Source: an uncultured Clostridia bacterium
GTDB taxonomy: Bacteria > Bacillota > Clostridia > Lachnospirales > CAG-274
Assembly: GCA_949948985.1 (NCBI GenBank)
Contig: CATLIG010000001.1
Location: forward strand, 62,001 to 126,000
Reading direction: 5' to 3'
Length of the DNA stretch: 64,000 nt
Made by a program: the position numbers and the translations under genes. Position 1 is the first letter of the stretch, and every line of letters begins with the position of its first letter. The notes under the pieces are model-generated. The model worked only from the letters and a program-made list of their open reading frames with translations, had not been told where the DNA came from and ran no database searches. Shown in pieces: positions 15,546 to 63,638 of the stretch.

Positions 15546-18500
15546 TTATATATTAGCATCTCTTATGATAATATCAACCATATAAAGCAAGTCCGTAAGA
15601 CTCATAGTATCTTTAGGTCTTGCCCCATATGTATTGCCATAAAATCCTAAATCACCCGCTTTAAGAAGAGCTGTTCTGTATTGAGGAGCGGCGTTTACCA
15701 CATCTTTATACTGAGTAGTCTCAATAGGAGTATAGGCAGCCTGCCGTCCTGTTTTCACCTCATAAAGCTTAATAAGAGCGTTTATTCCCTCTTCTCTGGA
15801 CACTGTAGCCGACGATAAAATCATACCTTTTCTTGAAAGAGCTGTATAATCCTCATCAGGCAAAGCGCCGTTTATAGCTACATCCTTTCTTCCGTTTGCA
15901 ACAGCGGCAATAATGTTGTTAAACTGAACTGTAGAAACAACAGCGTTAGGTTTAACATACTGCATATCGGTAATAGCTATTCTGCTGTTCACACCCACTA
16001 AAGCATTGACAGCGTTTCCGTCGTTTGTAGATATTGACGGAGCGTTTTTCCTTATAGCGGAAAAAGTAGCGGGAATTTTTGTGTTTCCAATAAAAGTACC
16101 CGTAGGGTCGTGATATATACTTGTGTATCTTTCCCAGTTTACTGTTAAATCAGTATCATAGTATGCGCCTACATTTGTTTCCTGTAAAGTATATTTATCA
16201 TTAAGCTTAATAGCCACCCCTACATCTTTATAAAACTGCTTCATATTATGAATGCCCATAGGAGTAATAATATCTACCGATAATTTCTGTGGAGGAGAAA
16301 TAAACGTTTCTCCAAAGCCAAGTAAAGGAGCGTCAGCCGGACTTGAGGAGATAGTTATCCTTACATCTGCGCCCTGTCCGTATCCCGCTAGGGAATTAAC
16401 CTCATTTGTTCTTATAAAATCAGGAGAAAATCCAAATTTCACATTGTCAGCTTTTACGTATAACGTAATATCATGTTCCCCAAAAGCTTCCATAACAGAA
16501 TAAGGTATTTCAATAACTCTGTTTTTAATCTGATAATTATTGTAATAAGTCAAATCAACATCAAATTCGTAAAGCTTTTTCTGAAGAATAGTTGAAATAA
16601 ATCTTTGGTCTACATAATTATCGTCAAGACCATCTTTGTCTTCTTTATTTGAACGAAAACGATAAGTCAGAGTATTTGTAAAACCGTCATAAATATATTC
16701 AAAATCATCATCAGGCAAAGGATAATGAGCATCATTTATATCACCGTCATATTCATCGTCTGTTTTGCCTGCCTTAAATCTTACCACACTGCTCCAATCA
16801 GACTCTTTTGTATAAGAGGTTTCCTCTATTTCAGCCGGACCGTCCGGAATTACCACAGTAATAGGGTCTTTAAAATCCTTGTTGTCGGCAAACTGGAGAA
16901 TATATGTAAAACTTTTTTGTCTTGACCCGTCACTTCCGATACTCACAGTACATCTGGCTTTTACTCTTGCATAGTAATCAGTATTAGCTGTAAGATTGTT
17001 CATTTTTGAAACAATAGTATTCTGAATACCCTCGTTCACAAGAACCTGATAATTTTCACCCTCAGCGGCGGCAGCGGGAGATGGACCTAAATCGTCCTCA
17101 TTTCTGTTCCATTCAAGAATAATATATTTATCTGTACGCTGCTGATAATCCGTACCGCTTGCCGTATTGTAAATATTAAGAGTATCTTTTGCCACAAGAC
17201 CAAGACCGTCAGGAATATCAGGTTTTCCCAAAGCGTCTGTAATTACGTAAAGAGGACTTGACCACGCAGAATATTTAGGGTCTCCGTTATTCGGTGCGTG
17301 CGCCCTTATCCATATATAATAGCCTGTTTCAGGCATAAGACCTCTTATTCTGTAATAAATTCGTCTGATATCATCCTCTGTTTTAATCTCGCCGAATTCA
17401 TTTATTTGTTCCATAGTAATAATTGTAGCTCCGCCCTGAGTAGGGTCAGCCTGTAAAATTGTGCTGTAAGCAAGTTCATACTCAAGATTTGGCATATATT
17501 CCTGCCATTTTACAGTAATTGACATATCATCATGGCTGTCCTCCTCAAGTATAGGAACAGTAGGCGTAATATCCACAACTATATCATCAGGTAAAGTTGT
17601 ACCCATGATATAAGCTGGATAAGCATCTTTTTTCCCGTCGGGAAGAATCCTGTAAGGTCTTATAATAATAGCATAAGTAGTGTTTTTCTCAAGTCCCGTA
17701 ACATTGTAAGATGCCGTAATATCCGATGAGAACGCGGGATTTATAGCCGTCCACGGAGCATTTTCGTCTTTCATAATTCTTTCAAGATACGCTTCATACC
17801 CTCCGTCGGCATCAGCAATTTCATCATAAGGAATATAAAGCATTTCATATTTAATATCGGGAGCGGTAAGGTCTACCTGTCTTACAGGAAGGAGATTCAG
17901 CTGGTCTTCGTTAAGACCGGCGCTCTCAAAGAGAGATTTTACTCTTTCCTCGCTGTCAGCGTTTGAAAAACTTATAGCACTTCCGGATGTACCCTTTTCA
18001 TCACCATAGTATATTACGCCGCCCTCTCCGACAGAAGCGCTTGAATACCATGAATCGGTATTGCTGTCATAAATCTCGTACCATTTTGTTTTCCATTCAA
18101 CTTCAATGGAATTGTTTGTAACCATTTCATTTCCCTCAGAATCCTCTTTAATTTTAAGAGGAGGCTTATTAAGGGATTGAGGAGTAGCTATATCTCCTTT
18201 TGCGGGAAAATACTGAGAAGCGTATGCCGGATCCGCTTTAAGAGGATTTCCTATAGCTACGGGTTTTGACACAACAAGTTTTACATAATATACTTTGTTC
18301 TGCTCAATATTTTTAGAAACAAAAGTTCCATCGTCGTTTTTGCCTGTATAAGTAGTAAGAGCCCTGTGATAAACAGGATTTTCATAATCCTGTAAAGTTG
18401 TTTCCTCAAGTTCCGACGCTTTTACGGAATCAAGAGTTTTCGGAAGATTAGGGTCTTGTAGGTCTTCCACATTGTCTGTAATCCATAAATCATAAACAAC

Positions 18501-19841
18501 GTTTTTATCAATATACATACCGTTGGCATCTACAAATTCCTCTTCGGATTCGTTGTAAGGGTATCGTAAAAACACCGACCAATAAGCGTCAATAGTATTT
18601 ACACTTGCCGTCTGACTTACCTCAAGGAAAATCTTAGGCTTGTTTGGAGTAATATTCACAGCGTTAGGGTCATACACGGCGATTTCAGATGTAAGAGGAA
18701 CGTCCATTCCTTTTACAAAAATTCTGAGTTGATAATAAGTAGTTTCTGTAGGCTTATCAATCTGCCAGTAATTTACATAAATAGCCTGAGCATTGTAAAT
18801 TGTACCGATTTTCACACCAATATCGTTTTCAGCAGGACCTTTATACACCTCTACCCTGTCAATATCGCCTATAGTGTTTGAAAGCCCCCACCAATGAAGA
18901 TTGAGATAATTTTTTCCGTTTTCAAGTATTTCAAGAGGAACTGAAATATAAGCGTTATTTGTTCTGTATTCTGTTGTGTTATATGAGTTAAATGCCATTT
19001 TATAAACAATATTATTTATTCTGATATCAGCGTAGCTTAAATTAGTAAGCTTTCTTATTTCAGAACCATTGTATAGAGGCTCTACCTTTACAGCATAAAC
19101 CTCACCTTGAGATAAAGACGTATCATATATACTGAACTGAAATCTTGAAACTCCGTTTCTTGTGCTGTCTGTAATTCTTATAAGCTCCTCATTGTCAATA
19201 CTCACGTCTTTGTAATTGTTAAAATTTGTAACGGTCGCCCCACCTCTTTGATAGTAAATTCTGTATCCGTCAAAAATATCCTTGTTGTTGTAAAGGGGGT
19301 TATCCCACGTAACTGTAAGATTGCTTCCGGAACCGCTTGCCTCCACCTCAAGGTCGCTCATAAAGAGTACGTCCTCTGGAACGCTTGAGTCATACGCCGC
19401 ATCTCTTGTAATATATGTACCGTCGTCCTGAGGATATCTGTGCCTGTGATAAGGTAAAATTCTGTACATATAAAGACTTCCGGTAGTAAGCATTCTTGTA
19501 ATTGTGGCGGTGGTAAGAGCGTTTCCTGTTTCTTCCGAAATAGTGTTAAAAGCTCCTTCTCCGCCTGTAATATTTCTTTCCTGAATTCTGTAGCCGTCAG
19601 GAGGATGAATAACATCTCCCTGTTCGGCGTCAGGGTCATTTACAGGCGACCACTCAGGATTAGTCCACGAAAAGTTAATACTGTCGCCGTTGCCTGTTTT
19701 GGGCATTACCCTTATAACAACATCTCTTACGTGACTTTGGAGGTTAGCGAAAACCGTTTCAAAGTTAAACGTAACCGCTGAGAAAGAAATAATACAGGAG
19801 AGCAATAAGGCAAAAATTCTTTTTAATCTATTTTTCCTCAT
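15546..19841 (-). CDS. Giant exported fibronectin type III protein with SLH-like C-terminus
   Basis: 1431 residues with a signal peptide (1-32, IFALLLSCIISFSAVTF core, cleavage near VFA). The mature part is a string of fibronectin-III-like beta-sandwiches: about 37-160, 163-285, 400-540, 560-740, 760-865 and 870-1030, each with the paired pattern W/Y...GYRI.Y...YYVR. The last 130 residues (VQFNNIIAAVANGRKD to the end) look like diverged SLH repeats, e.g. YKDVVNAAPQYRTALLKAGD followed by a MSLTDLLYMVDII helix, suggesting attachment to wall polysaccharide. No catalytic domain is visible. The ribosome site AAGGAGGAA is formed partly by the stop codon of the preceding 1611-residue gene, 14 bp away, so the two are translated together. 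Likely roles are surface scaffold or adhesion. Confidence 0.78.
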   Translation of the reverse strand: MRKNRLKRIFALLLSCIISFSAVTFNFETVFANLQSHVRDVVIRVMPKTGNGDSINFSWTNPEWSPVNDPDAEQGDVIHPPDGYRIQERNITGGEGAFNTISEETGNALTTATITRMLTTGSLYMYRILPYHRHRYPQDDGTYITRDAAYDSSVPEDVLFMSDLEVEASGSGSNLTVTWDNPLYNNKDIFDGYRIYYQRGGATVTNFNNYKDVSIDNEELIRITDSTRNGVSRFQFSIYDTSLSQGEVYAVKVEPLYNGSEIRKLTNLSYADIRINNIVYKMAFNSYNTTEYRTNNAYISVPLEILENGKNYLNLHWWGLSNTIGDIDRVEVYKGPAENDIGVKIGTIYNAQAIYVNYWQIDKPTETTYYQLRIFVKGMDVPLTSEIAVYDPNAVNITPNKPKIFLEVSQTASVNTIDAYWSVFLRYPYNESEEEFVDANGMYIDKNVVYDLWITDNVEDLQDPNLPKTLDSVKASELEETTLQDYENPVYHRALTTYTGKNDDGTFVSKNIEQNKVYYVKLVVSKPVAIGNPLKADPAYASQYFPAKGDIATPQSLNKPPLKIKEDSEGNEMVTNNSIEVEWKTKWYEIYDSNTDSWYSSASVGEGGVIYYGDEKGTSGSAISFSNADSEERVKSLFESAGLNEDQLNLLPVRQVDLTAPDIKYEMLYIPYDEIADADGGYEAYLERIMKDENAPWTAINPAFSSDITASYNVTGLEKNTTYAIIIRPYRILPDGKKDAYPAYIMGTTLPDDIVVDITPTVPILEEDSHDDMSITVKWQEYMPNLEYELAYSTILQADPTQGGATIITMEQINEFGEIKTEDDIRRIYYRIRGLMPETGYYIWIRAHAPNNGDPKYSAWSSPLYVITDALGKPDIPDGLGLVAKDTLNIYNTASGTDYQQRTDKYIILEWNRNEDDLGPSPAAAAEGENYQVLVNEGIQNTIVSKMNNLTANTDYYARVKARCTVSIGSDGSRQKSFTYILQFADNKDFKDPITVVIPDGPAEIEETSYTKESDWSSVVRFKAGKTDDEYDGDINDAHYPLPDDDFEYIYDGFTNTLTYRFRSNKEDKDGLDDNYVDQRFISTILQKKLYEFDVDLTYYNNYQIKNRVIEIPYSVMEAFGEHDITLYVKADNVKFGFSPDFIRTNEVNSLAGYGQGADVRITISSSPADAPLLGFGETFISPPQKLSVDIITPMGIHNMKQFYKDVGVAIKLNDKYTLQETNVGAYYDTDLTVNWERYTSIYHDPTGTFIGNTKIPATFSAIRKNAPSISTNDGNAVNALVGVNSRIAITDMQYVKPNAVVSTVQFNNIIAAVANGRKDVAINGALPDEDYTALSRKGMILSSATVSREEGINALIKLYEVKTGRQAAYTPIETTQYKDVVNAAPQYRTALLKAGDLGFYGNTYGARPKDTMSLTDLLYMVDIIIRDANI

Positions 19842-19855
19842 TAAAAAATTCCTCC

Positions 19856-22800
19856 TTAAAGATTAATCTTTGTGGAAATATTTGCGAGCATCTGCAAATA
19901 ATCCTTTATGGTCATAATTCCGTTAGGATTCATACCTTTGTTAGTATATACGCCTGTTTCAAAAGCAGCCTGAATACTCTTTTTATATAAAGGCTGTATA
20001 CCTGTTATACCGCTTGTGACAGTGAAATTTCTTATTTGAATTGTATCTATTTTCACATTTTTTCTTACCTGATAAGCCATCATTGTAAGATAAACGGCCT
20101 CCTGATTGGTTGAGTTGCCCTCTTTGCTCTTGACAAGTAAGTTTACGCCTTTTGATGTAAAGAAAGCTATAGGCTCAGCCGTCTTTTCAGCGCCTGATAT
20201 TCTGGCAGAACAGCCTAAAGCGGCGCTTCTTGTCAAAGGAGCGTTTATATTAAGAGCTGTACCTTTTCCAAGGAAATCCTCAAGACCATATTTAGCGACA
20301 ATGTTTGTAATAAGCTGACCGTTTGGAATATTTGCTATATCAGGAATAATAACAGCTTTCCCAATAAACACGTATATTCCGGGGTATCTTGTGTATATAG
20401 CCTTTTTGCCCATATATTCAGAAACGTCTGCTCCCGTCCATACACCGTTTACCATTCGTCTGCCTGAAACAGTGGTTCCCTGTGCCGCTGGGTAAGCGAT
20501 TATAATGTTTGACTCAAGCTCTTCCGTTTCAAAACTTCTTTCGATTATATCCTCAAGGTCGTCAAGAAATTCCTCGTGAGTATCCTCATTAAAATCAATA
20601 ACAAGGTCTTTTATGTACTTCACCATTTCCTCGTCTTTGTCAGAGTCATCAATCTCATCTACAATATCGTCATAATCGTCCTCAATCTGGTCGGCAATCC
20701 ATTCAAAAATGTCCTCTACTCTTTCATCGTCCCATTCCTGTATATCGTCCTCAACGCCTACAGCGTCAACTTCAACATCAATAACGGGACTTAACGGCTC
20801 AACTCCGTCTACGGTATAAGACACTTCGTTAAAATAAGTTGTTATACGTATAAAATAATCCTCCACGTGGTCGTGGTCCATTCTGTCAAGCACTTCCCGC
20901 ACAGCGGTATTAAGTGCCGGGTCTATAGCTCCCGCCCCTATAATTACGTCAGCATCTTTCCAGCTCACCTTAAATCCTTTGTTAGCGTCGTATGCCTGTT
21001 TAATAGCGCTTGCCGGAATATAATATACTTTCTTTTCACCGAATTCACCAACAGGAAGATTAATAACTCCCGTAACAGCCTCGTTTATAACATTTTGGAA
21101 ATGCTGAGGTCTGTAGTATACAATAGTGTTAGCGGTAGTATCCTCTAAAATCCAGTAAGGGTCGTCAAGTTCTTCCTCAAGAAGTTCTTTATACCTGTCA
21201 ATCCATCCGTCAATTTCATCTTGTCTGTCCTGGTCTACCTGATCTACATCTGTTCTTACCTTTTCGGTATTGGAATAAATAGATGCCTCGTTTAACACTT
21301 TGTTTAAAATTCTTACTTTAATAAAATAAAGTTTTCCCTGTTCAAGACCTGTTATTTTATATACAAAGTGCAAAGTTCCGTCAGGATTTTCAGTTACGCT
21401 TGAAAGTAAAGTGGATGGATTCATAGTAACTGGATTTTCCCATAAATCAGCATCTTTTTTAATTGAGTACTGAATATCATATTCAGAACCTAAAAGTGTT
21501 TTATCAAAGTAAGGCGTGTCAAAACTTATAACAACCTGACTTTCCTTATCGTGTTTTACGCTTTTTTCTATTTTAAGGTTAAAAGGACTTTCAACAGGGG
21601 TTGTAGTTACAGAAAGAGGAACCCATATAGAATAAGCGGCGGGCTTTCCGTCAACCATTCTTACTGTTCTTAAATAATAGAAATAAAGCTGATTAGGACT
21701 TAATGTTCTGTCATATATAAAATTCTTTTCAGGGTCTTTGGGGTCAAAGCTGACTCTTTCAGAAGATATAGGAGTGTCTGAAAACTCGGTTCCGTTAAAT
21801 TCAAAAATACTGTCGTTTATAGTCTGCCATCCTGCTATATCAACATCGCTTTTTACTTTGTCCCAGGTTTCGGCATAGTCTTTTCTGCTTGCTCTTAAAG
21901 CGTTGTCCATCTGCTCCCCGTTGATTCTTATAAGCTGATATTCTATTGAGCTTCCCGGATAATCTATAGCGTCAATAACTTTATCCCAAATAAGTTTTAC
22001 ACTGTTTAAAGTAATATCGTCTTTCGTAAAGTTCTCAGGCGCTTCCGGATAATTATCCTCAGGACCCGGTACATCTTCGTCAGGCAAAGTTGTTGCCGTA
22101 ACGATACTGGAGTAACCCGATACATCCTCCTCATCAGGCAAATAAGTTTCATTTACCGTATCATAAGGAATAACAACCGTTTCCAAAACAACATAGTAGG
22201 GCTGGTTTTTGTCAAGACCGCTAAAAGAAAGACTTTGTTCTTCCAAACTCTTATCGTGCATAATATTCTCTATTTTTACTATCTGTCCGTTTCTTAAATC
22301 CTCTCGCAGAACAGTTCCCGCGGAATCTGTAGCCGTTGACATATCAATACCTGCCGCCGCTGTTTTGTTTTCAAAATTGTGAGTCTTTATAATATTTTTA
22401 ATACTGTCAGGAATTTCATCTTTGTTTTCATTGTACTCTGATAGCTTGTCAAAATTAGCTTTATCCTGAGTAATATAAGCGTTAAACTTCAGCGACTCAT
22501 CGTTAAAGTCAAAATTTCTTGTCAGAAGCATTTTTTCTCTGTATTTGTAAATAAGACTGTTGATATCGTCAATATCAAAAGTATCCCATCTTACAGTAAA
22601 AGATGTCTGTCCTACAGCCTTGTCACCCTCTGTAACAACCTTTACGTTCTGAGGCTCCGGCACATCATAATCGACAACATCGTCAAGAGTTATATCATCA
22701 TAAAGTGACGGAGGTATTTTTACATAAGTAGTATTATCATTATAATATCCCTCTAAATTAAGGAAATAAATATTTGGATATAAAAACAGTTGGTTTTTGT

Positions 22801-24691
22801 CCGCTTTAGGCGCGGTAGGCAGTCTGAATGTAATTTTAGGTCTTATTATGGTGTACCTTGTCGTACCAATAAGAACCTCATATGTATCCCACTCAAATTT
22901 ATCAATTTCAGCGTTTCCGTCCTCCTTTGATGCTTCTATATTGATTTCGTCACCGTTTAAAGTAAGATGAAGTTTAACTTTAGCAAACTGCTGTTCGTTT
23001 TCATCATAAGGAACCTCACCTCTGTTAAACTCGTAAAATACGTCAAGAGAACCTCCGTTTTTCTTCAATATGTTTTTAATTACAGCCTCATATCCCATAT
23101 CCCATCTTATATCCATAAGAAGTTCATTTTCAGTCGAAGATTCCGCTCCTGCAGGAACAATTTCCGCTGATATAACCTCAAAATTTGAGGGAGTACTTAT
23201 TACAACGTCCGAGTCGTCAGGAGTATATTTAAGAATCTGAGAAATAAGAGTTATCTGACTTGTACCCGGCGTCTGGTCAGGAGGGGTAAACACAAACTCA
23301 ATCTGGAAAAATTGAGTTTGTTTGTTAATGGCGTTAATGTTTATAGGCACGTAAATAGGCTCCGTACCGCCTTTAGAGTCTTCCACCTGCGCCCATGGAC
23401 TTACAGTAGCCGCTGTTGTTCCCGATTTAACGGTATAATAACCTTTATATCCCTCAAAAGGCTGAATTTTCAAATAAAACTGGTCTGCCGATAAAGCCTC
23501 TACAGTATATACGGGATAAGTATATACCTTTCCGTGCTGAATTGTTGTCACATCGGCAAGAAAATTAGCGTTATTTGGTTTATACAAAGAAATCTCAACA
23601 GGATTATAAATAACTCCCGGCTGAAGATTTGTAATATCAATAGAAATTGTTTTGTTGTCCGAACTTCTGGAGGCTGTAGCCACTCCTCCGCCGGCTGTGG
23701 AGTATCTTGTCACACCGTTTACATCATTAGCGTATATATTGTCGATACTTATTTGAATTTTTTTTGTATCATCGCTGTTTCCAAGGTTTACAATAAGGGA
23801 TGTTTTATCATCATTTCCCATTAAAGACGGGTCGATAGTTATATATTTTTTAGTGTTATCGTCCCATACCTTCGGCATTTCAATATCAAGGACAATTTCA
23901 GGCTCTGTACCAGGGTCGTCGTCCTCAAAAGGTCTTTGAGTATGACCAACCTCAAATTTTCTGTCGTTAGCATAAGGAGTAGACTTGAAAGTATTAGCGT
24001 TTATACCTGTAAAAAGCTGAATATTCTCAGAAATCTTAGTTTCTCCCGGAATATCAAGGTCAAGATTAAAATCAAATACGTTTCCTTGGGTAACTCCGTC
24101 TGTCACGAAATAAAACACATCGTTTTCAGTACCTTTGACCCATTGAAATTTAACAGTTTTGTTATCATATTTAAAAGCAAATCCGCTGCTTGGCACAATA
24201 TTAAAACTTGCCTCTGTCGGATTTCCGTCGGCTCCATAGTTTATACCGAATCCTTCTGTCGGATTTGGGAAACTTTCAGCTGTCGGAGCTATATAAATAC
24301 CCTGTGTATCTCTGTACACTTGAAAAAGGGTATCTTTTATATCTATGTAGTCGCCCTTAGCGTAATCGAACACTTTGTAAACGACCGTTGCACTGTTGCC
24401 TTTTTTTGTAACGGTAAAGTCAACACGCTTGCCGTCTTGTATGTGATAACTTAATTTATATTCGCCCTGGTCAAAGGACGCGCCGTTTCTTTTTCCAAAA
24501 TCCCACCATAAAAATACATTGTCGTTTTTCTCTCCCTTTTCGACAACATTAAGAGTGTCGTCAAGAATGTTTTCCTTGTTCCACTCAAAATTAAAGGAAT
24601 CGGCGGCAAAAACATTCTGAAAAGAAACGCCAAAAAACAAAGCGTTTATAAGAAAAATCAAAGTGAGAAATTTCGCCGTAAAAATTTTCAT
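19856..24691 (-). CDS. Giant exported fibronectin type III protein, first gene of the pair
   Basis: 1611 residues from the ATG at 24691, set by AGGAGGT five bases upstream; the longer frame to 24805 would add 38 residues with no ribosome site. A signal peptide (1-29, FLTLIFLINALFFGVSF) leads to about 620 residues of beta-rich sequence I cannot place, then three FnIII-like domains (about 675-860, 880-1020, 1030-1140), a very acidic Asp/Glu-rich helical stretch (about 1311-1394) and a C-terminal region with SLH-like sequence (PLYKKSIQAAFETGVYTNKG ending in a KDYLQMLANI helix). It shares its layout with the downstream 1431-residue protein. The acidic segment could bind calcium or a basic partner. 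I found no enzymatic motif; a surface scaffold is the simplest reading. Confidence 0.78.
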   Translation of the reverse strand: MKIFTAKFLTLIFLINALFFGVSFQNVFAADSFNFEWNKENILDDTLNVVEKGEKNDNVFLWWDFGKRNGASFDQGEYKLSYHIQDGKRVDFTVTKKGNSATVVYKVFDYAKGDYIDIKDTLFQVYRDTQGIYIAPTAESFPNPTEGFGINYGADGNPTEASFNIVPSSGFAFKYDNKTVKFQWVKGTENDVFYFVTDGVTQGNVFDFNLDLDIPGETKISENIQLFTGINANTFKSTPYANDRKFEVGHTQRPFEDDDPGTEPEIVLDIEMPKVWDDNTKKYITIDPSLMGNDDKTSLIVNLGNSDDTKKIQISIDNIYANDVNGVTRYSTAGGGVATASRSSDNKTISIDITNLQPGVIYNPVEISLYKPNNANFLADVTTIQHGKVYTYPVYTVEALSADQFYLKIQPFEGYKGYYTVKSGTTAATVSPWAQVEDSKGGTEPIYVPININAINKQTQFFQIEFVFTPPDQTPGTSQITLISQILKYTPDDSDVVISTPSNFEVISAEIVPAGAESSTENELLMDIRWDMGYEAVIKNILKKNGGSLDVFYEFNRGEVPYDENEQQFAKVKLHLTLNGDEINIEASKEDGNAEIDKFEWDTYEVLIGTTRYTIIRPKITFRLPTAPKADKNQLFLYPNIYFLNLEGYYNDNTTYVKIPPSLYDDITLDDVVDYDVPEPQNVKVVTEGDKAVGQTSFTVRWDTFDIDDINSLIYKYREKMLLTRNFDFNDESLKFNAYITQDKANFDKLSEYNENKDEIPDSIKNIIKTHNFENKTAAAGIDMSTATDSAGTVLREDLRNGQIVKIENIMHDKSLEEQSLSFSGLDKNQPYYVVLETVVIPYDTVNETYLPDEEDVSGYSSIVTATTLPDEDVPGPEDNYPEAPENFTKDDITLNSVKLIWDKVIDAIDYPGSSIEYQLIRINGEQMDNALRASRKDYAETWDKVKSDVDIAGWQTINDSIFEFNGTEFSDTPISSERVSFDPKDPEKNFIYDRTLSPNQLYFYYLRTVRMVDGKPAAYSIWVPLSVTTTPVESPFNLKIEKSVKHDKESQVVISFDTPYFDKTLLGSEYDIQYSIKKDADLWENPVTMNPSTLLSSVTENPDGTLHFVYKITGLEQGKLYFIKVRILNKVLNEASIYSNTEKVRTDVDQVDQDRQDEIDGWIDRYKELLEEELDDPYWILEDTTANTIVYYRPQHFQNVINEAVTGVINLPVGEFGEKKVYYIPASAIKQAYDANKGFKVSWKDADVIIGAGAIDPALNTAVREVLDRMDHDHVEDYFIRITTYFNEVSYTVDGVEPLSPVIDVEVDAVGVEDDIQEWDDERVEDIFEWIADQIEDDYDDIVDEIDDSDKDEEMVKYIKDLVIDFNEDTHEEFLDDLEDIIERSFETEELESNIIIAYPAAQGTTVSGRRMVNGVWTGADVSEYMGKKAIYTRYPGIYVFIGKAVIIPDIANIPNGQLITNIVAKYGLEDFLGKGTALNINAPLTRSAALGCSARISGAEKTAEPIAFFTSKGVNLLVKSKEGNSTNQEAVYLTMMAYQVRKNVKIDTIQIRNFTVTSGITGIQPLYKKSIQAAFETGVYTNKGMNPNGIMTIKDYLQMLANISTKINL

Positions 24692-24847
24692 AACATACCT
24701 CCTATGAATAATATTTAAAACTTTAATTAATGTCATTATGTATATTATATAACCTGCGACAATAAAAGTCAAAGGTAAAGAAGGCTTTTTTAACAAACGT
24801 AACAAAATTGTAAAAAAACACTAAAAGCCTGTCTGACAAAGGATACA

Positions 24848-58184: not shown

Positions 58185-61100
58185 TTATTTTTCTGTAGTT
58201 TCTTCCAAAGTGGTTTCTTCTGAAGACTCACTGGTTTCCTCTGAAACTTCTGTAGTTTCTTCTGAAGACTCTTCCTTTGATTTTTCAGCTTTCGCTTTTT
58301 CCTCTACAGACTTTTTGGTTTGGAGAACATCATATATAAGCTTAGCGGCCTCCCCACGTGAAATATTCATTGTAGGATTAACCATACCATTGCTTCCGTT
58401 TATAAAACCAAGACCAACAAGCTTTTCAAAAGGAGCTTTAGCATAAGAAGCTATTAACGAAGCGTCCGCGAATTTGCTTAAATCGCCTGTTTTGTCGCTT
58501 GTGTATCCTATAGCGTCAAGAGTTCTTGCAATTATCGATACAGCGTCCTGTCTTGTAATATTATTTTTAGGAGCAAAAGTAGTTGCTGATGTTCCGTTGA
58601 TAATACCATAAGCTTTAGCTGCGGCAATCTGTGTAGTATAGTAATCGCTTGCCAAAACATCTGTAAAGCCGTGAGCTTCACTTGACGTAATTCCAAGAGC
58701 TTTTACAAGCATTACGGTAAAGTCACCTCTTGTAATTTTAGCGTCAGGAGCAAATGAATTTTCAGTAATACCGTTTACAATACCCTCGTTTACTAAAGCG
58801 GCAACATAAGGTTTTGCCCAACTACCTGAAAGGTCTGCGAATTTATCGGCGCTGCCGTTGTCAACAGGAGCAGACACTATCGGAGCGTTATCACCTGTTG
58901 TATTATCACTTGTTGCGTTATCGCCTGTAGTATTATCGCCTGCTGTGTTATCATCTTTATCAGAATTTGTCTTATCATTAGAAGAATCAGTTTTTGAAGA
59001 CTCATCCTTCGAAGACTCATCCTTGTTATTTGATGATGAAACTGTATTTGAGGAATTGTTCTTTTTAGCAGAACCGCCGCCTCTTCCACCTACAGAATCA
59101 TCTTCATCATTTCTTGAAGTAGTAAGTTCATCAGTAGATACCTCTATAGGGTCTTCATATCCCTCAACACCGGCAATCTTAGCTTTAGCCAAATCGGTAA
59201 GTTCAAGGAAATCCCCTGTAATAAAGTTACCGTCTTCATCCTGTGCAAAGTGACCGTTTTTAATAACAGCATCCATATCAAGACTCTTGAAGAAAGCTTC
59301 TGTAACTTCCTCGCCTGACGGGTTTTTACCATTAATATAGTTGTAATCTTTATAATTAGGATGTTCAACAACAGTTCCGTCAGTTTCTGTTTTAGTAGGA
59401 TAATTTCCTACTCTGTCACTTCCTCCCGGCTGATAAGACACTATACCTTTAATGTCATAATTATAATGCCTTGTACTTGCGCCGCTTGTGTATAATCCTA
59501 CATTAGAACCTGTATTTTTCCAAGATACACAATCTCTTGCTGTAAGCTGAGGATTGGAGTTTGATGAAATACCTGTAGCGTCGTTTAAGAATGTTTTACA
59601 GCCTTTAATATAATGCTGTACAGGAACGGATTCACCGCCGAGTTTAAGACCGTTGTGACCGCCTTTGGATCTCTTCTTGCTTGTTCCGTCAGCTTTAAGT
59701 TCATAACCCTGACGGTAAGAAATACAGTTAATCAGAGTTACAGGAGCGATAGGACCTGTACCTGATTTAGTATATAAGTCCCAACCATCATCAAGATTGT
59801 GGTGAGATACACAGCCTTCAAATACATTGTTGTATCCTACGGTAAGCTTACAGCCAAAACCGTCCGCGTTAATACCCGCAGGGTCTGCGCTGTTCCATAC
59901 CTCACAGTTTTTAATTAAATTGTCATGAGGCCACTGGCTCATTTTTATATAATCTCCGTTTGTTCTTGAGAGCTGGAATCCTGTATCATTGTTATCATAG
60001 AATTTACAGTCCTCAATAACACAATTATTTCCAGAAAGCTGGAAACCTCTTAAATTGTTTCCGGAATGTCTGAAATCAATTCCTTTTACATCCCAGTAGC
60101 TTGCCTCCAATGTCATTCCCAGTACCTCGTACTGAGCATCAATTACAGGCTCAGCGCCCTCGTCTGCTATAAGACGGATGCGCTTTTTGGAAAGACCTGA
60201 TTTTGTTTCAGGAACAGTAATTGTTTTATCTCTCAGATAAACACCGTCCATCATTATGATAGTCTGACCAGCTTTTACAAATCCTAAAGCTGTATCAAGG
60301 TCAAGAGGGTCTTCTTTTGTACCCACGCCTGAAGCAGAACCGTCAGGCGCCACATAAATCGTTTCAAGACTAGCGTCGTAGTTTGAGTTGTGAGTTACAA
60401 CAAATGAGTCTTTATAATCCGCGGTTGACGTAAGAATTTCATATTGGTCTGAAGCCTCGTCAACAATTCTTGGCGTATAAAGGAACTCAAAATTAGTACT
60501 GGAGTTTTCGTTGAGTTTTACAGCGAAAACATTGTTCTTTTTTGATATAACAGCTTGGTTTATAATAACCTTGTTATCTTGTTTGATTGTAAGGTATCCA
60601 CCTGATTTATTACTTGGTTTTATTGTAAGATTGTAGTCTGTTTTAGCTGAAACAGCAGGTGAAGTAACAGAAATCTTAGGTGCTATAGATGTAGCTCCAA
60701 CCTCTTTTGATGTAAGGTCTGTACCTTTGTCTGTTACCCATAATTTAACATTTTCAACTTCCATTTTAGCATAACGGGCACAGAAGAATCCAACATAAAT
60801 ATTATCAGGGTCAATATTTGTCAAAGTTTCGCCATATTCAGGATACCATGACCTTACTTCTGTAGTACCTGTCTGGTGGTCGTAGCAAGTAGCTTTGTAT
60901 CCTCCGTTAATTTTTTCAAGTGTAAGAGTATATTTGTCATTTTCATCAAAGAAATGATTTGTCATTGTAGGAGTAGGTATTTCTCTTGTAGGAGAACCAA
61001 CTTCTGTAGTTCTGAATGACTCACAGCCGTATCTTACACCAAGATTAATACGGTTAATATCTCTGTTCTTTTCAAAAGAACTTGCTTTAGGGTCTTTAGG

Positions 61101-63638
61101 ATATCCTGTGAAAGAACATCCGCCTACCAAAACGAAGTTACCGCAGTATACATCTCCTGAGTTAGCAGGTTTAGGCTCGCCGTTTTCATCTAATACAGCG
61201 TCAGTCATTTTACTTGATTTTGTTTCTCCGCCGTTGTCTGCTTTAAATTGGTCGTTGGCCTGTAAGAGAATATTATCTCTGGCCATAATACCGAAAGCTT
61301 CCTGTCCGGCTCTTGATTCATCATCAAAAGGTTTTGTAAGATATTCTTTGATTGTTATATCTGCCTGAATTCTGAAGTTTTCATCAGCATTCAGTCTTGT
61401 GTAAAGGAATGATATACCGTCCTGGTCGGTAGAAATTTTTCCGCCGCCGCCTGTAGACGCTACAGTAGCTTTCACGCCCGGATTTTCAATCTCATTATAC
61501 GCTCCGGAACCGCTTCCGCCCTCTATAGTACAGTAATTTTTATTACCGTCGCTTGCGGATTCACCCTGACGGGTCCATTTCCAGTAATGTTTATCCAAAG
61601 TTTTTACTGTAACAGGCAAATCTGTTTTATCAAAATTAGTATTTACAGGGATAATTGAAATTATTGATACAGGATTTTCAGCGTCTGATTTTTCTTTTAC
61701 AGTGAATTTAGTCAAATCAATGTCGAATAAACCGTCAGCGTTTACTATTTCTTCATCTCCCGCACCATAAATCATCTTTCTTACTTTAAGAGGTTCAAGA
61801 TCTCCTGATGAGTAGTAATAGCATACCTGAAGTCCTGTAGAATCAAACGCCTCTTTGTTTGATTTTGACGCGTCAAGATTATAAGTCGTAATAGGATATC
61901 CTGTTATTCTTACTTGTCTTACTTCTTTAATTCTTAATTCAACATCAAAAGATGTTTTAATATTCTCGTTTTTAGCATATTTAGCGACAATGGTATAATT
62001 GCCGGCTTTAGTGTTGTCAAACGCTGAGGAATCCAATATATATTCTTTTTCTGAAAGAACATCTGACTTTGTACTGCCGTCTGCGTTTTTATATTCGGCT
62101 TTTATTCTTAATCCTGTAGGATTAAAATTTTCACCGTTATAGTAAACCATAGTTACAGGCTTGCTTGTAACTTTAAGAGAGCTTAAAGCAAAATCCTTGT
62201 ATACAGTTACAGGAATTTCAGCAACAGCGCTTCCCGCCTCTGTAGTTTCTGTAGCTCTGAATTTTACTTTAACTGATTTATCATTAGCCATATTGGCGTC
62301 GATAAACTCGTAATTGATTTCTTCTACGCTGTTACCTTCATCATCAGTAACTGTCTTGAAAGTTTTAACGTCTTTTCCGCCAAGAGAGAGTACATATTGA
62401 TCTTCCTCAAGAGTTTTTTTCGTTCCATCGAGGAATTCAGCCTCAACTTTAAGACTTTCCGGGTTAAATACCTGACCAATAAAATACTCGTTTTTAAGCG
62501 GCTGACTTATAACATTAACTTTAGTAGCTCTGTTAATTACACAATTAAGCTGAATGGGAATTGATACCCCGCCTTTTGTAATAGACGCATTCTGAACTCC
62601 CAAAGAGTTAATGTCAGCGTCAATAGCGTAATCTTCTCTTTGAAGAACTTCTGTTGTTCCGTCCTCGTAAGTGGCTGAAACGATAAGTCCGGGGAGTAAA
62701 GGCTGAGTTCCCACAACAAATTCGTTAGTTTCAGGATTGTTTGTTATAGTGAGATTTTTTATTTTTCTGTCGTCCACGTTAAGTTTAATATTTGTAAAAG
62801 TAACGTCTGCGTTTCTCGCCTGCATTAAAGCTGGATGTACTGTATCTCCCGTAAAGATATTTCCCGTATCTCTTACTATATAAGAATTATCTCCACAATA
62901 CACAGTATAAATATTGCTGACCTTTGTAATTTTAAGACTTATAGGAGTATCAGTAGAACCACCCGAGAGTTTAACAACATCCTTAGCTAAAATATCGCTC
63001 CATGTTCTGCTTTTGGCATTATCTCTGTAACTTCCTTTAATGCTCATATTAGTGTCGTTTTTTGATGCCGCCCAAAGAGAACCCGCAACACTGTTTGCTG
63101 TTTTCTCAAGCTTATCAAATACAGCAATTCCGGCGGTTGTCTGATGTGGATTGCTTTCTGACTGACCGTTAGACTTTTTGGGCAGATTGTTAGTATTATT
63201 TACAGTCATATCCGCTGTAAGAGTAAAGTCTTTGGACTTATCCACCTCAGCGGCAAAATATGAATACTGGTCGTCACTGCCTGACCATTTACCGCTCTGA
63301 CCGTCTGTAGCCCTTATAGTCACGCCGCTTTCAAGGTCGCCTATAACTTCCGAACTTCCGCCTGTCTTTCCGCTTTTCCAGCCATCGGTAACATCTGCCG
63401 CCAAAGCTGTTGATGTAGTAAGCTCATCGGCAGATAAAATCACAGAATCTTCTTCCGGCAAAACATCTTCTGTTTTTTCGGAATCATCAGAATCCGTCGG
63501 CAAAACTTCGGCAGCGGCATCTGATACCTCAGAAACTTCTGTTTCCAAAACTTCAGTTTCTTCAGCTAAAACCGTAAAAGACATAGAGCTGAAAATCATA
63601 GACACAGCAAGTAAAGATGCAATAATCTTTTTCTTCAT
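58185..63638 (-). CDS. Exported multidomain pectate lyase (PL9-like) with three SLH domains
   Basis: 1817 residues. Signal peptide 1-25; Asp/Glu/Ser-rich stretch to about 80; a beta-sandwich that may bind carbohydrate (85-285); four Ig-like repeats (from about 290, 371, 483 and 573, each with GxxFNPxGLxxxAEY-type strands); a second beta-sandwich (680-960); a right-handed beta-helix (1090-1410); a low-complexity Ser/Lys/Asn linker with TGDNTT repeats (1510-1590); three SLH domains (1595-1775) with TRGDF-type motifs; and an acidic Ser/Thr/Glu tail. The helix carries the PL9 marks YDNNDTGFQLS, NADGFGCKLTVG (K1264, the expected catalytic Lys), DDGWDLY and GGHNGLKLGG. The enzyme should cleave polygalacturonate by beta-elimination while held to the wall by the SLH domains. 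The ribosome site AAAAAGGAGGAAGAC is strong, and a terminator follows. Confidence 0.9.
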   Translation of the reverse strand: MKKKIIASLLAVSMIFSSMSFTVLAEETEVLETEVSEVSDAAAEVLPTDSDDSEKTEDVLPEEDSVILSADELTTSTALAADVTDGWKSGKTGGSSEVIGDLESGVTIRATDGQSGKWSGSDDQYSYFAAEVDKSKDFTLTADMTVNNTNNLPKKSNGQSESNPHQTTAGIAVFDKLEKTANSVAGSLWAASKNDTNMSIKGSYRDNAKSRTWSDILAKDVVKLSGGSTDTPISLKITKVSNIYTVYCGDNSYIVRDTGNIFTGDTVHPALMQARNADVTFTNIKLNVDDRKIKNLTITNNPETNEFVVGTQPLLPGLIVSATYEDGTTEVLQREDYAIDADINSLGVQNASITKGGVSIPIQLNCVINRATKVNVISQPLKNEYFIGQVFNPESLKVEAEFLDGTKKTLEEDQYVLSLGGKDVKTFKTVTDDEGNSVEEINYEFIDANMANDKSVKVKFRATETTEAGSAVAEIPVTVYKDFALSSLKVTSKPVTMVYYNGENFNPTGLRIKAEYKNADGSTKSDVLSEKEYILDSSAFDNTKAGNYTIVAKYAKNENIKTSFDVELRIKEVRQVRITGYPITTYNLDASKSNKEAFDSTGLQVCYYYSSGDLEPLKVRKMIYGAGDEEIVNADGLFDIDLTKFTVKEKSDAENPVSIISIIPVNTNFDKTDLPVTVKTLDKHYWKWTRQGESASDGNKNYCTIEGGSGSGAYNEIENPGVKATVASTGGGGKISTDQDGISFLYTRLNADENFRIQADITIKEYLTKPFDDESRAGQEAFGIMARDNILLQANDQFKADNGGETKSSKMTDAVLDENGEPKPANSGDVYCGNFVLVGGCSFTGYPKDPKASSFEKNRDINRINLGVRYGCESFRTTEVGSPTREIPTPTMTNHFFDENDKYTLTLEKINGGYKATCYDHQTGTTEVRSWYPEYGETLTNIDPDNIYVGFFCARYAKMEVENVKLWVTDKGTDLTSKEVGATSIAPKISVTSPAVSAKTDYNLTIKPSNKSGGYLTIKQDNKVIINQAVISKKNNVFAVKLNENSSTNFEFLYTPRIVDEASDQYEILTSTADYKDSFVVTHNSNYDASLETIYVAPDGSASGVGTKEDPLDLDTALGFVKAGQTIIMMDGVYLRDKTITVPETKSGLSKKRIRLIADEGAEPVIDAQYEVLGMTLEASYWDVKGIDFRHSGNNLRGFQLSGNNCVIEDCKFYDNNDTGFQLSRTNGDYIKMSQWPHDNLIKNCEVWNSADPAGINADGFGCKLTVGYNNVFEGCVSHHNLDDGWDLYTKSGTGPIAPVTLINCISYRQGYELKADGTSKKRSKGGHNGLKLGGESVPVQHYIKGCKTFLNDATGISSNSNPQLTARDCVSWKNTGSNVGLYTSGASTRHYNYDIKGIVSYQPGGSDRVGNYPTKTETDGTVVEHPNYKDYNYINGKNPSGEEVTEAFFKSLDMDAVIKNGHFAQDEDGNFITGDFLELTDLAKAKIAGVEGYEDPIEVSTDELTTSRNDEDDSVGGRGGGSAKKNNSSNTVSSSNNKDESSKDESSKTDSSNDKTNSDKDDNTAGDNTTGDNATSDNTTGDNAPIVSAPVDNGSADKFADLSGSWAKPYVAALVNEGIVNGITENSFAPDAKITRGDFTVMLVKALGITSSEAHGFTDVLASDYYTTQIAAAKAYGIINGTSATTFAPKNNITRQDAVSIIARTLDAIGYTSDKTGDLSKFADASLIASYAKAPFEKLVGLGFINGSNGMVNPTMNISRGEAAKLIYDVLQTKKSVEEKAKAEKSKEESSEETTEVSEETSESSEETTLEETTEK

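Follow-up and report, generated by a model that had tools for sequence, protein, structure and literature searches.

The window analysed here is a stretch of 64,000 nucleotides from the contig CATLIG010000001.1 of an uncultured Clostridia bacterium (Lachnospirales, CAG-274). Two neighbouring genes on its minus strand, here called A and B, encode very large proteins. Their features are as follows.

15546-19841, minus strand: gene B, the downstream partner, 1431 aa
15549-16010, minus strand: SLH-like tail of B (residues ~1278-1431), homologous to the tail of A, from profile comparison
17259-17531, minus strand: FnIII-like domain of B (residues 771-861; Pfam Pur_ac_phosph_N, under the cut-off)
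19080-19355, minus strand: fn3 domain of B (residues 163-254), from Pfam
19851-19858, minus strand: stop codon TAA of A (19858-19856) overlapping the Shine-Dalgarno sequence AAGGAGG of B, read in the sequence
19856-24691, minus strand: gene A, the upstream partner, 1611 aa, with ATG at 24691
19859-20353, minus strand: predicted three-repeat SLH-like tail of A (residues ~1447-1611), from profile and structure comparison
20354-21145, minus strand: pre-SLH domain of A (residues ~1183-1446) with a predicted GAIN/ZU5-like fold, from VIA
20546-20743, minus strand: long helical hairpin within the pre-SLH domain of A (residues ~1317-1382; H184-216 and H220-249 of the model)
21296-21559, minus strand: fn3 domain of A (residues 1045-1132), just under the Pfam cut-off (24.5 bits against 25)
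23069-24616, minus strand: predicted chain of Ig/FnIII-like beta sandwiches of A (residues 26-541), from the AlphaFold2 model, Foldseek and VIA
24698-24703, minus strand: Shine-Dalgarno sequence AGGAGG of A, read in the sequence
24744-24772, minus strand: sigma-A type promoter of A, TTGACT (24772-24767), 17 bases, TATAAT (24749-24744), read in the sequence

The program-made list of open reading frames places the start of A at TTG 24805; the ATG at 24691 is preferred here, with AGGAGG at 24703-24698. A TTGA...TA...T match upstream of A is also present in three sister loci (L069-L071). The Shine-Dalgarno sequence of B, TAAGGAGG, includes the stop codon of A, and translation of the two genes is therefore probably coupled. 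Both N-termini have, by eye, a basic and then a hydrophobic, signal-like stretch. Upstream of the pair lies a HAD-type gene and downstream of it one resembling anthranilate phosphoribosyltransferase, both named by eye. The original prediction for this DNA had listed two adjacent genes of 1611 and 1431 residues, a signal peptide in each product, and a ribosome site of the second gene that takes in the stop codon of the first; coordinates and lengths proved correct, and the other two points agree with the reading given here.

Searches of A and B against Pfam returned nothing but fn3-type matches, while NCBIfam, PHROGs and a PDB sequence search returned no match for either protein. The fn3 score of B (43.7 bits) is above the cut-off of 25 and that of A just below it. 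At E <= 0.001, fn3 was detected in 15 of 20 A relatives and 26 of 27 B relatives. Residues 26-541 of A were modelled by AlphaFold2 with a pLDDT of 88.3, and Foldseek matched the model to 48 PDB entries with E <= 0.001, which are Ig and FnIII proteins. The best VIA Z was 8.7 and all rows for the N-terminal half of A lie near Z 7-8.7; such rows show no more than a common sandwich arrangement. No enzyme family scored above its Pfam cut-off among the 20 A and 27 B relatives, and no cohesin, dockerin, CBM or catalytic family was detected in these 47 proteins. An enzyme or cellulosome scaffold was rejected on account of this absence.

A confident model was also obtained for residues 1134-1611 of A (pLDDT 88.8). 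Its pre-SLH domain resembles, in VIA, the GAIN domain of BAI3 (4dlo, Z 10.3) and the ZU5-ZU5-UPA region of ankyrin-B (4d8o, Z 8.1). In animals, GAIN and ZU5-UPA domains are known to self-cleave. Matches to the corresponding segment of the B profile (columns ~1098-1294) were also found in other, unrelated-looking large proteins of relatives, so the GAIN/ZU5-like segment may be a widespread pre-SLH domain.

At E <= 0.001 the Pfam SLH model (PF00395) matches neither A nor B nor any of their relatives (20 of A, 27 of B); elsewhere in the same genome 55 SLH matches were detected. The two tails align to each other (hhalign probability 99.1, E 1.8e-18). They also match the SLH region of C, a third gene described below, with profile scores of 43.0 (A) and 40.9 (B), while the best of 60 column shuffles reached 20.1 and 19.2. 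The top ten Foldseek matches of the A tail model in the PDB are SLH domains without exception. VIA aligned the model to the SLH domain of Sap (3pyw) with Z 14.2 over 153 residues at 2.9 A, and the top 13 rows are all SLH. Profile and fold comparison therefore indicate that both tails are SLH-derived: that of A is predicted to be a diverged three-repeat SLH fold, and that of B appears to be SLH-like through its homology to the A tail. The tail of A shares its predicted three-repeat fold with the SLH domains of Sap (Bacillus anthracis) and SpaA (Paenibacillus alvei), but unlike these, A and B fall outside the Pfam model.

The TRAE-type arginines are mostly missing from the pair, and A and B each retain at most about one of the three. 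Of the 20 A rows, 17 carry R or K in repeat 1 and none carries either in repeat 3; of the 27 B rows, 16 carry R in repeat 2, and such residues are nearly absent from the remaining repeats of both proteins. All seven aligned members of C keep R in their first and third repeats. The genome of the window carries CsaB (277.7 bits). Strong CsaB matches are present in 107 of 119 A/B genomes and in 101 of 176 genomes lacking A/B (Fisher 4.8e-10, uncorrected for relatedness); several of the 12 A/B genomes with no strong match are incomplete assemblies. As an explanation of the pair CsaB is far too wide. Through their SLH-type tails A and B would be anchored to the cell wall.

These results bear out what had been described for the two products, namely several FnIII-like domains in each (fn3 in B, borderline in A, with the sandwich chain of A in addition), no visible enzyme domain (Pfam, NCBIfam and PHROGs searches of A and B and Pfam searches of the 47 relatives gave no enzyme match), and C-termini resembling degenerate SLH repeats. 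The structure prediction of the C-terminus that had been proposed was run for A and returned the SLH fold.

The profiles of A and B are collinear over 931 columns (hhalign probability 99.9, E 2.3e-31), which identifies the two as ancient paralogues. Their co-occurrence in other genomes, suggested earlier as a check, was surveyed in 295 genomes of the order. At E <= 1e-20 (matches between 1e-20 and 1e-3 were left out of the tally) A is present in 121, B in 123 and both in 119; two genomes have A alone and four have B alone, so the opposite outcome, genes rarely found together, was not seen. In 105 of the 119 pair genomes the two genes share a contig and a strand, A being the upstream one and the median gap 31 bp (94 of these pairs are at most 500 bp apart), and in the other 14 they lie on different contigs. 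Retention of the pair in 119 of 295 genomes is more than chance. Nearly all genomes that carry the pair have a single copy of it.

When 321 genomes of the class were searched (E <= 1e-5), 51 had matches, and B homologues of ~1280-1350 aa from other orders account for many of these. In the other clostridial orders A adjoins B in all 20 fetched loci, with the caveat that one copy of A is truncated at the end of its contig. In a separate scan of 38 loci, the named records are Clostridia: gut and termite-gut genomes, Vallitalea and Candidatus Epulonipiscium. A and B are thus an obligate pair of paralogues, and the two proteins may contact each other, as in the hetero-oligomeric surface structure suggested in the original prediction.

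Several loci depart from the usual arrangement. B occurs alone in L097 and L099, and with C alone in L311 and L091. One genome of family f2 (L314, G102) has a tandem duplication in the order A-A-B-B, and the matches in G156 show an equal pattern. Two loci of families f10 and f11 (L094 and L095) have short pairs, with A of 662 and B of 656 aa in one and A of 677 and B of 526 aa in the other; these short forms retain C-terminal parts and could reveal a minimal core. In L090 (G039, family f4) stops interrupt both A and B and a full-length C follows, possibly a decaying copy of the pair or the result of assembly errors.

Gene C encodes an exported protein of ~285 aa with three canonical SLH repeats and follows B in many relatives. 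Pfam SLH was detected in 7 of 7 aligned members. The N-terminal domain of C was found in 34 of the 295 genomes at E <= 0.01, and the 30 strong matches are all located downstream of B, at a distance of less than 900 bp. At the loci from other orders C comes after the pair in 13 of 20 cases; the window's own family lacks it. In family f13 (three genomes of one genus; L091, L092 and L309-L311) B has lost the SLH-like tail and C comes after it, as if C could take over anchoring. A is located elsewhere in this family, beside fliJ, fliK, flgD and flgE in 3 of 3 genomes; these neighbours were confirmed by Pfam in L309, and fliJ and flgE also in L310.

In the other orders and in part of the window's own order, the cluster lies just upstream of a ywmB-type gene, murA, spoIID and spoIIQ, with mreB and flgF/flgG further along (the ywmB-type gene is DUF1779, checked once; the other names were given by eye). 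TBLASTN detected flgF/flgG-like genes in 10 other fetched A/B neighbourhoods, two of which are query seeds or partial at the locus end.

The region upstream of A was scanned for a sigma-D-type motif based on the Bacillus subtilis consensus, given as TAAA-N13-16-GCCGATAW in the available sections of PMC3865298. The pattern TNAA-N13-17-NCGATA was sought from 350 bases before to 120 after the start of A; short A genes (<1300-1400 aa: L081, L094, L095, L212 and the 224-aa piece of L090) did not enter the counts. The motif is present in 30 of 65 A loci; among the remaining genes at these loci it precedes 36 of 517 (Fisher 1.0e-14). Dinucleotide-based shuffles (200) gave a mean of 3.6 loci and a maximum of 10, and the 59 other orderings of CGATA gave at most 8. 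Flagellin genes served as a positive control, with the motif in 15 of 20 upstream stretches.

The pattern is uneven between groups: 2 of 13 loci in the window's own family, which is close to the control rate, 14 of 33 in the rest of the order, and 14 of 19 in other orders. Outside the own family the motif precedes A in 28 of 52 loci, again against 36 of 517 control genes, and by hand count at least one match occurs in 17 of 23 families. No sigma-D-type motif was found upstream of the window's own A, where the sigma-A type promoter lies. As judged from these matches, a putative sigma-D-type promoter motif is enriched upstream of the A/B operon outside the window's own family.

The distribution of flagellin was compared with that of the pair in 61 of the 295 genomes, 31 of which carry A/B (G038 was counted as a carrier from profile searches, having been missed by single-sequence searches; a weak flagellin match in G006, E 7.5e-4 and under the family cut-off, was scored absent). 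Flagellin was detected in 31 of 31 carriers and in 3 of 30 non-carriers (Fisher 2.6e-14, uncorrected for relatedness). In the window's own family the match is exact, with flagellin and A/B together in 12 genomes and neither in 25 (12/12 versus 0/25). The three flagellin-positive genomes without the pair are G041, which also has no SLH, G052 and G059. G050 (family f15) and G044 (family f9, also without SLH) have neither A/B nor flagellin. The pair therefore follows flagella: it is present in flagellated relatives and missing from most genomes without flagella. SLH presence was rejected as an explanation of this distribution, being found in 59 of the 61 genomes with no discrimination between carriers and non-carriers. 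Spo0A does not discriminate either (26 of 31 carriers, 25 of 30 others).

These genome counts are not independent of one another, and on phylogenies the independent changes are few. In the CsaB tree (40 rows), the cleaner of the two, in which g7 is represented by G024 alone, A/B and flagellin change twice each, jointly both times (2 of 2 independent pairs). In the Spo0A tree A/B changes five times and flagellin three times; in its three starred independent pairs flagellin changes the same way in one or two, shows no difference in the rest and never goes the opposite way. The long G052 branch of this tree is unreliable, its Spo0A having been cut as the longest open frame. The independent joint losses are so few that no sign test on either tree can reach significance.

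No description of the A/B gene pair was found in open-licence full-text papers. SLH-type surface proteins are an already known kind; an obligate paralogue pair tied to flagella would be a new form of it. The paralogy of A and B, the third SLH gene C in many relatives and the tracking of flagella all go beyond the original prediction.

Among known proteins SlhA of P. alvei, likened here by description, would serve as the best precedent. In the available sections of its report (PMC3776848), SlhA is an exported protein of 1335 aa with three C-terminal SLH repeats, the TRAE motifs of which are altered to SRGE, VRQD and LRGD. Deletion of slhA leaves the flagella in place and abolishes swarming, like a flagellin knock-out. 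Like A and B, SlhA is a large exported surface protein with altered SLH motifs. Unlike them, it is a single protein; it has a CBM6 at its N-terminus, its gene lies next to the wall-polymer locus and spaA, and those sections mention no pair, no C and no sigma-D control (PMC3776848). No CBM match was found in the 47 A/B relatives.

CmoA of Paenibacillus sp. NAIST15-1 is comparable in another way. According to the available sections of PMC5072692, it has Ig-type repeats, is co-regulated with flagella and is needed for movement on hard agar; it consists of a vWFA and eight IPT/TIG domains, is partly released from cells, and is encoded downstream of fliD-fliS. It resembles A and B as a large extracellular protein with Ig-type repeats and differs from A and B in having, by that account, no SLH-type tail. 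Pfam gave no VWA or TIG match in A, B or their relatives. CmoA shows that surface motility can depend on a large surface protein of Ig type that belongs to the flagellar regulon.

We consider A and B to be an obligate, wall-anchored surface pair that arose by duplication and forms a module of the flagellar lifestyle, most likely supporting flagellar motility; the probability of this reading is put at about 0.5. Both would be exported surface proteins that combine Ig/FnIII-like strings with a GAIN/ZU5-like domain and an SLH tail of three diverged repeats, and in many relatives C, with its canonical SLH repeats, probably contributes to their attachment to the pyruvylated wall polymer. In S-layer-type clostridia this module would be part of the flagellar way of life, switched on by the flagellar sigma factor in many families and lost along with flagella. 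The pair would take part in motility at the cell surface: it could act around the filament at its passage through wall and S-layer, or it could condition the surface for swimming and swarming.

Some observations count against a flagellar reading: the own genus has a sigma-A type promoter, the motif rate in the own family is 2 of 13, joint losses are few, three flagellin-positive genomes lack the pair, and 12 of 119 A/B genomes show no strong CsaB match. The sigma-A type promoter and the small number of joint losses are also in keeping with a general S-layer-associated scaffold or adhesin pair, tied to flagella through a shared lifestyle (motile, free-living or mucus-dwelling). This is possible with a lower probability, as FnIII/Ig strings with an SLH-type tail are the make-up of ordinary surface proteins, and a motility-coregulated adhesin would produce the same pattern; the surface adhesin cbpA is also under SigD in Clostridioides difficile (PMC3865298, available sections). 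However, near-universal single copy, strict pairing and collinearity across orders are unlike fast-evolving adhesins, and the enrichment of the sigma-D motif together with the hook-operon place in one genus is more specific than lifestyle. The motif would also suit a sigma-D-coregulated wall or cell-separation factor. Autolysins are among the genes driven by SigD in B. subtilis, and by extension wall turnover in motile cells could be organised by the pair; the same source adds a lytic transglycosylase under SigD in C. difficile (PMC3865298, available sections), but the 47 relatives contain no hydrolase or other enzyme domain and such a function appears improbable.

Gene order raises the question of sporulation-linked surface proteins, because the cluster often lies just upstream of ywmB-murA-spoIID-spoIIQ, both in other orders and in part of the own order. 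Spo0A does not track the pair, G055 and G057 (99 % complete) retain A/B with no Spo0A match, and the pair of the window sits elsewhere, between the HAD gene and the anthranilate phosphoribosyltransferase-like gene. A sporulation module was rejected on the Spo0A distribution and is the least probable of the readings. Hardly more probable is a scaffold for polysaccharide degradation, which comes to mind because the own genome has SLH enzymes, for example the protein at 58185-63638 of the window; the relatives lack the cohesin, dockerin, CBM and catalytic families sought in them, and the lineages with the pair live, judging by record titles, in widely differing habitats. The protein at 58185-63638 (minus strand) is itself a 1817-aa beta-helix protein, pectate-lyase-like by eye; it carries three canonical SLH repeats, and two of these rank among the stronger SLH matches of the genome.

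The boldest reading goes further than the preferred motility module and is doubtful. In it A-B(-C) would be a wall-anchored extracellular part of the flagellum itself, the sandwich strings forming a collar or bushing around the rod, hook or filament base. The two FnIII paralogues would be tethered to the wall polymer by their SLH-type tails, and A-B(-C) would serve thick, S-layered walls as the P and L rings serve Gram-negative envelopes. Likeness to the P-/L-ring bushing (FlgI/FlgH) lies in the proposed role only, namely to allow rotation of the flagellum within the envelope; Pfam matched neither FlgI nor FlgH in A, B or the 47 relatives. B. subtilis appears to lack bushing proteins, according to the available sections of PMC12153297.

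The passage and rotation of flagella within a thick Gram-positive wall with an S-layer are little understood. A conserved, paired SLH-type module that follows flagella across clostridia offers a concrete gene set for testing, and A and B are candidates for an unknown part of the bacterial swimming machinery. Hundreds of giant 'fibronectin type III' genes would be explained as one family, and the swarming defect of the P. alvei slhA mutant may be linked to a wider pattern.
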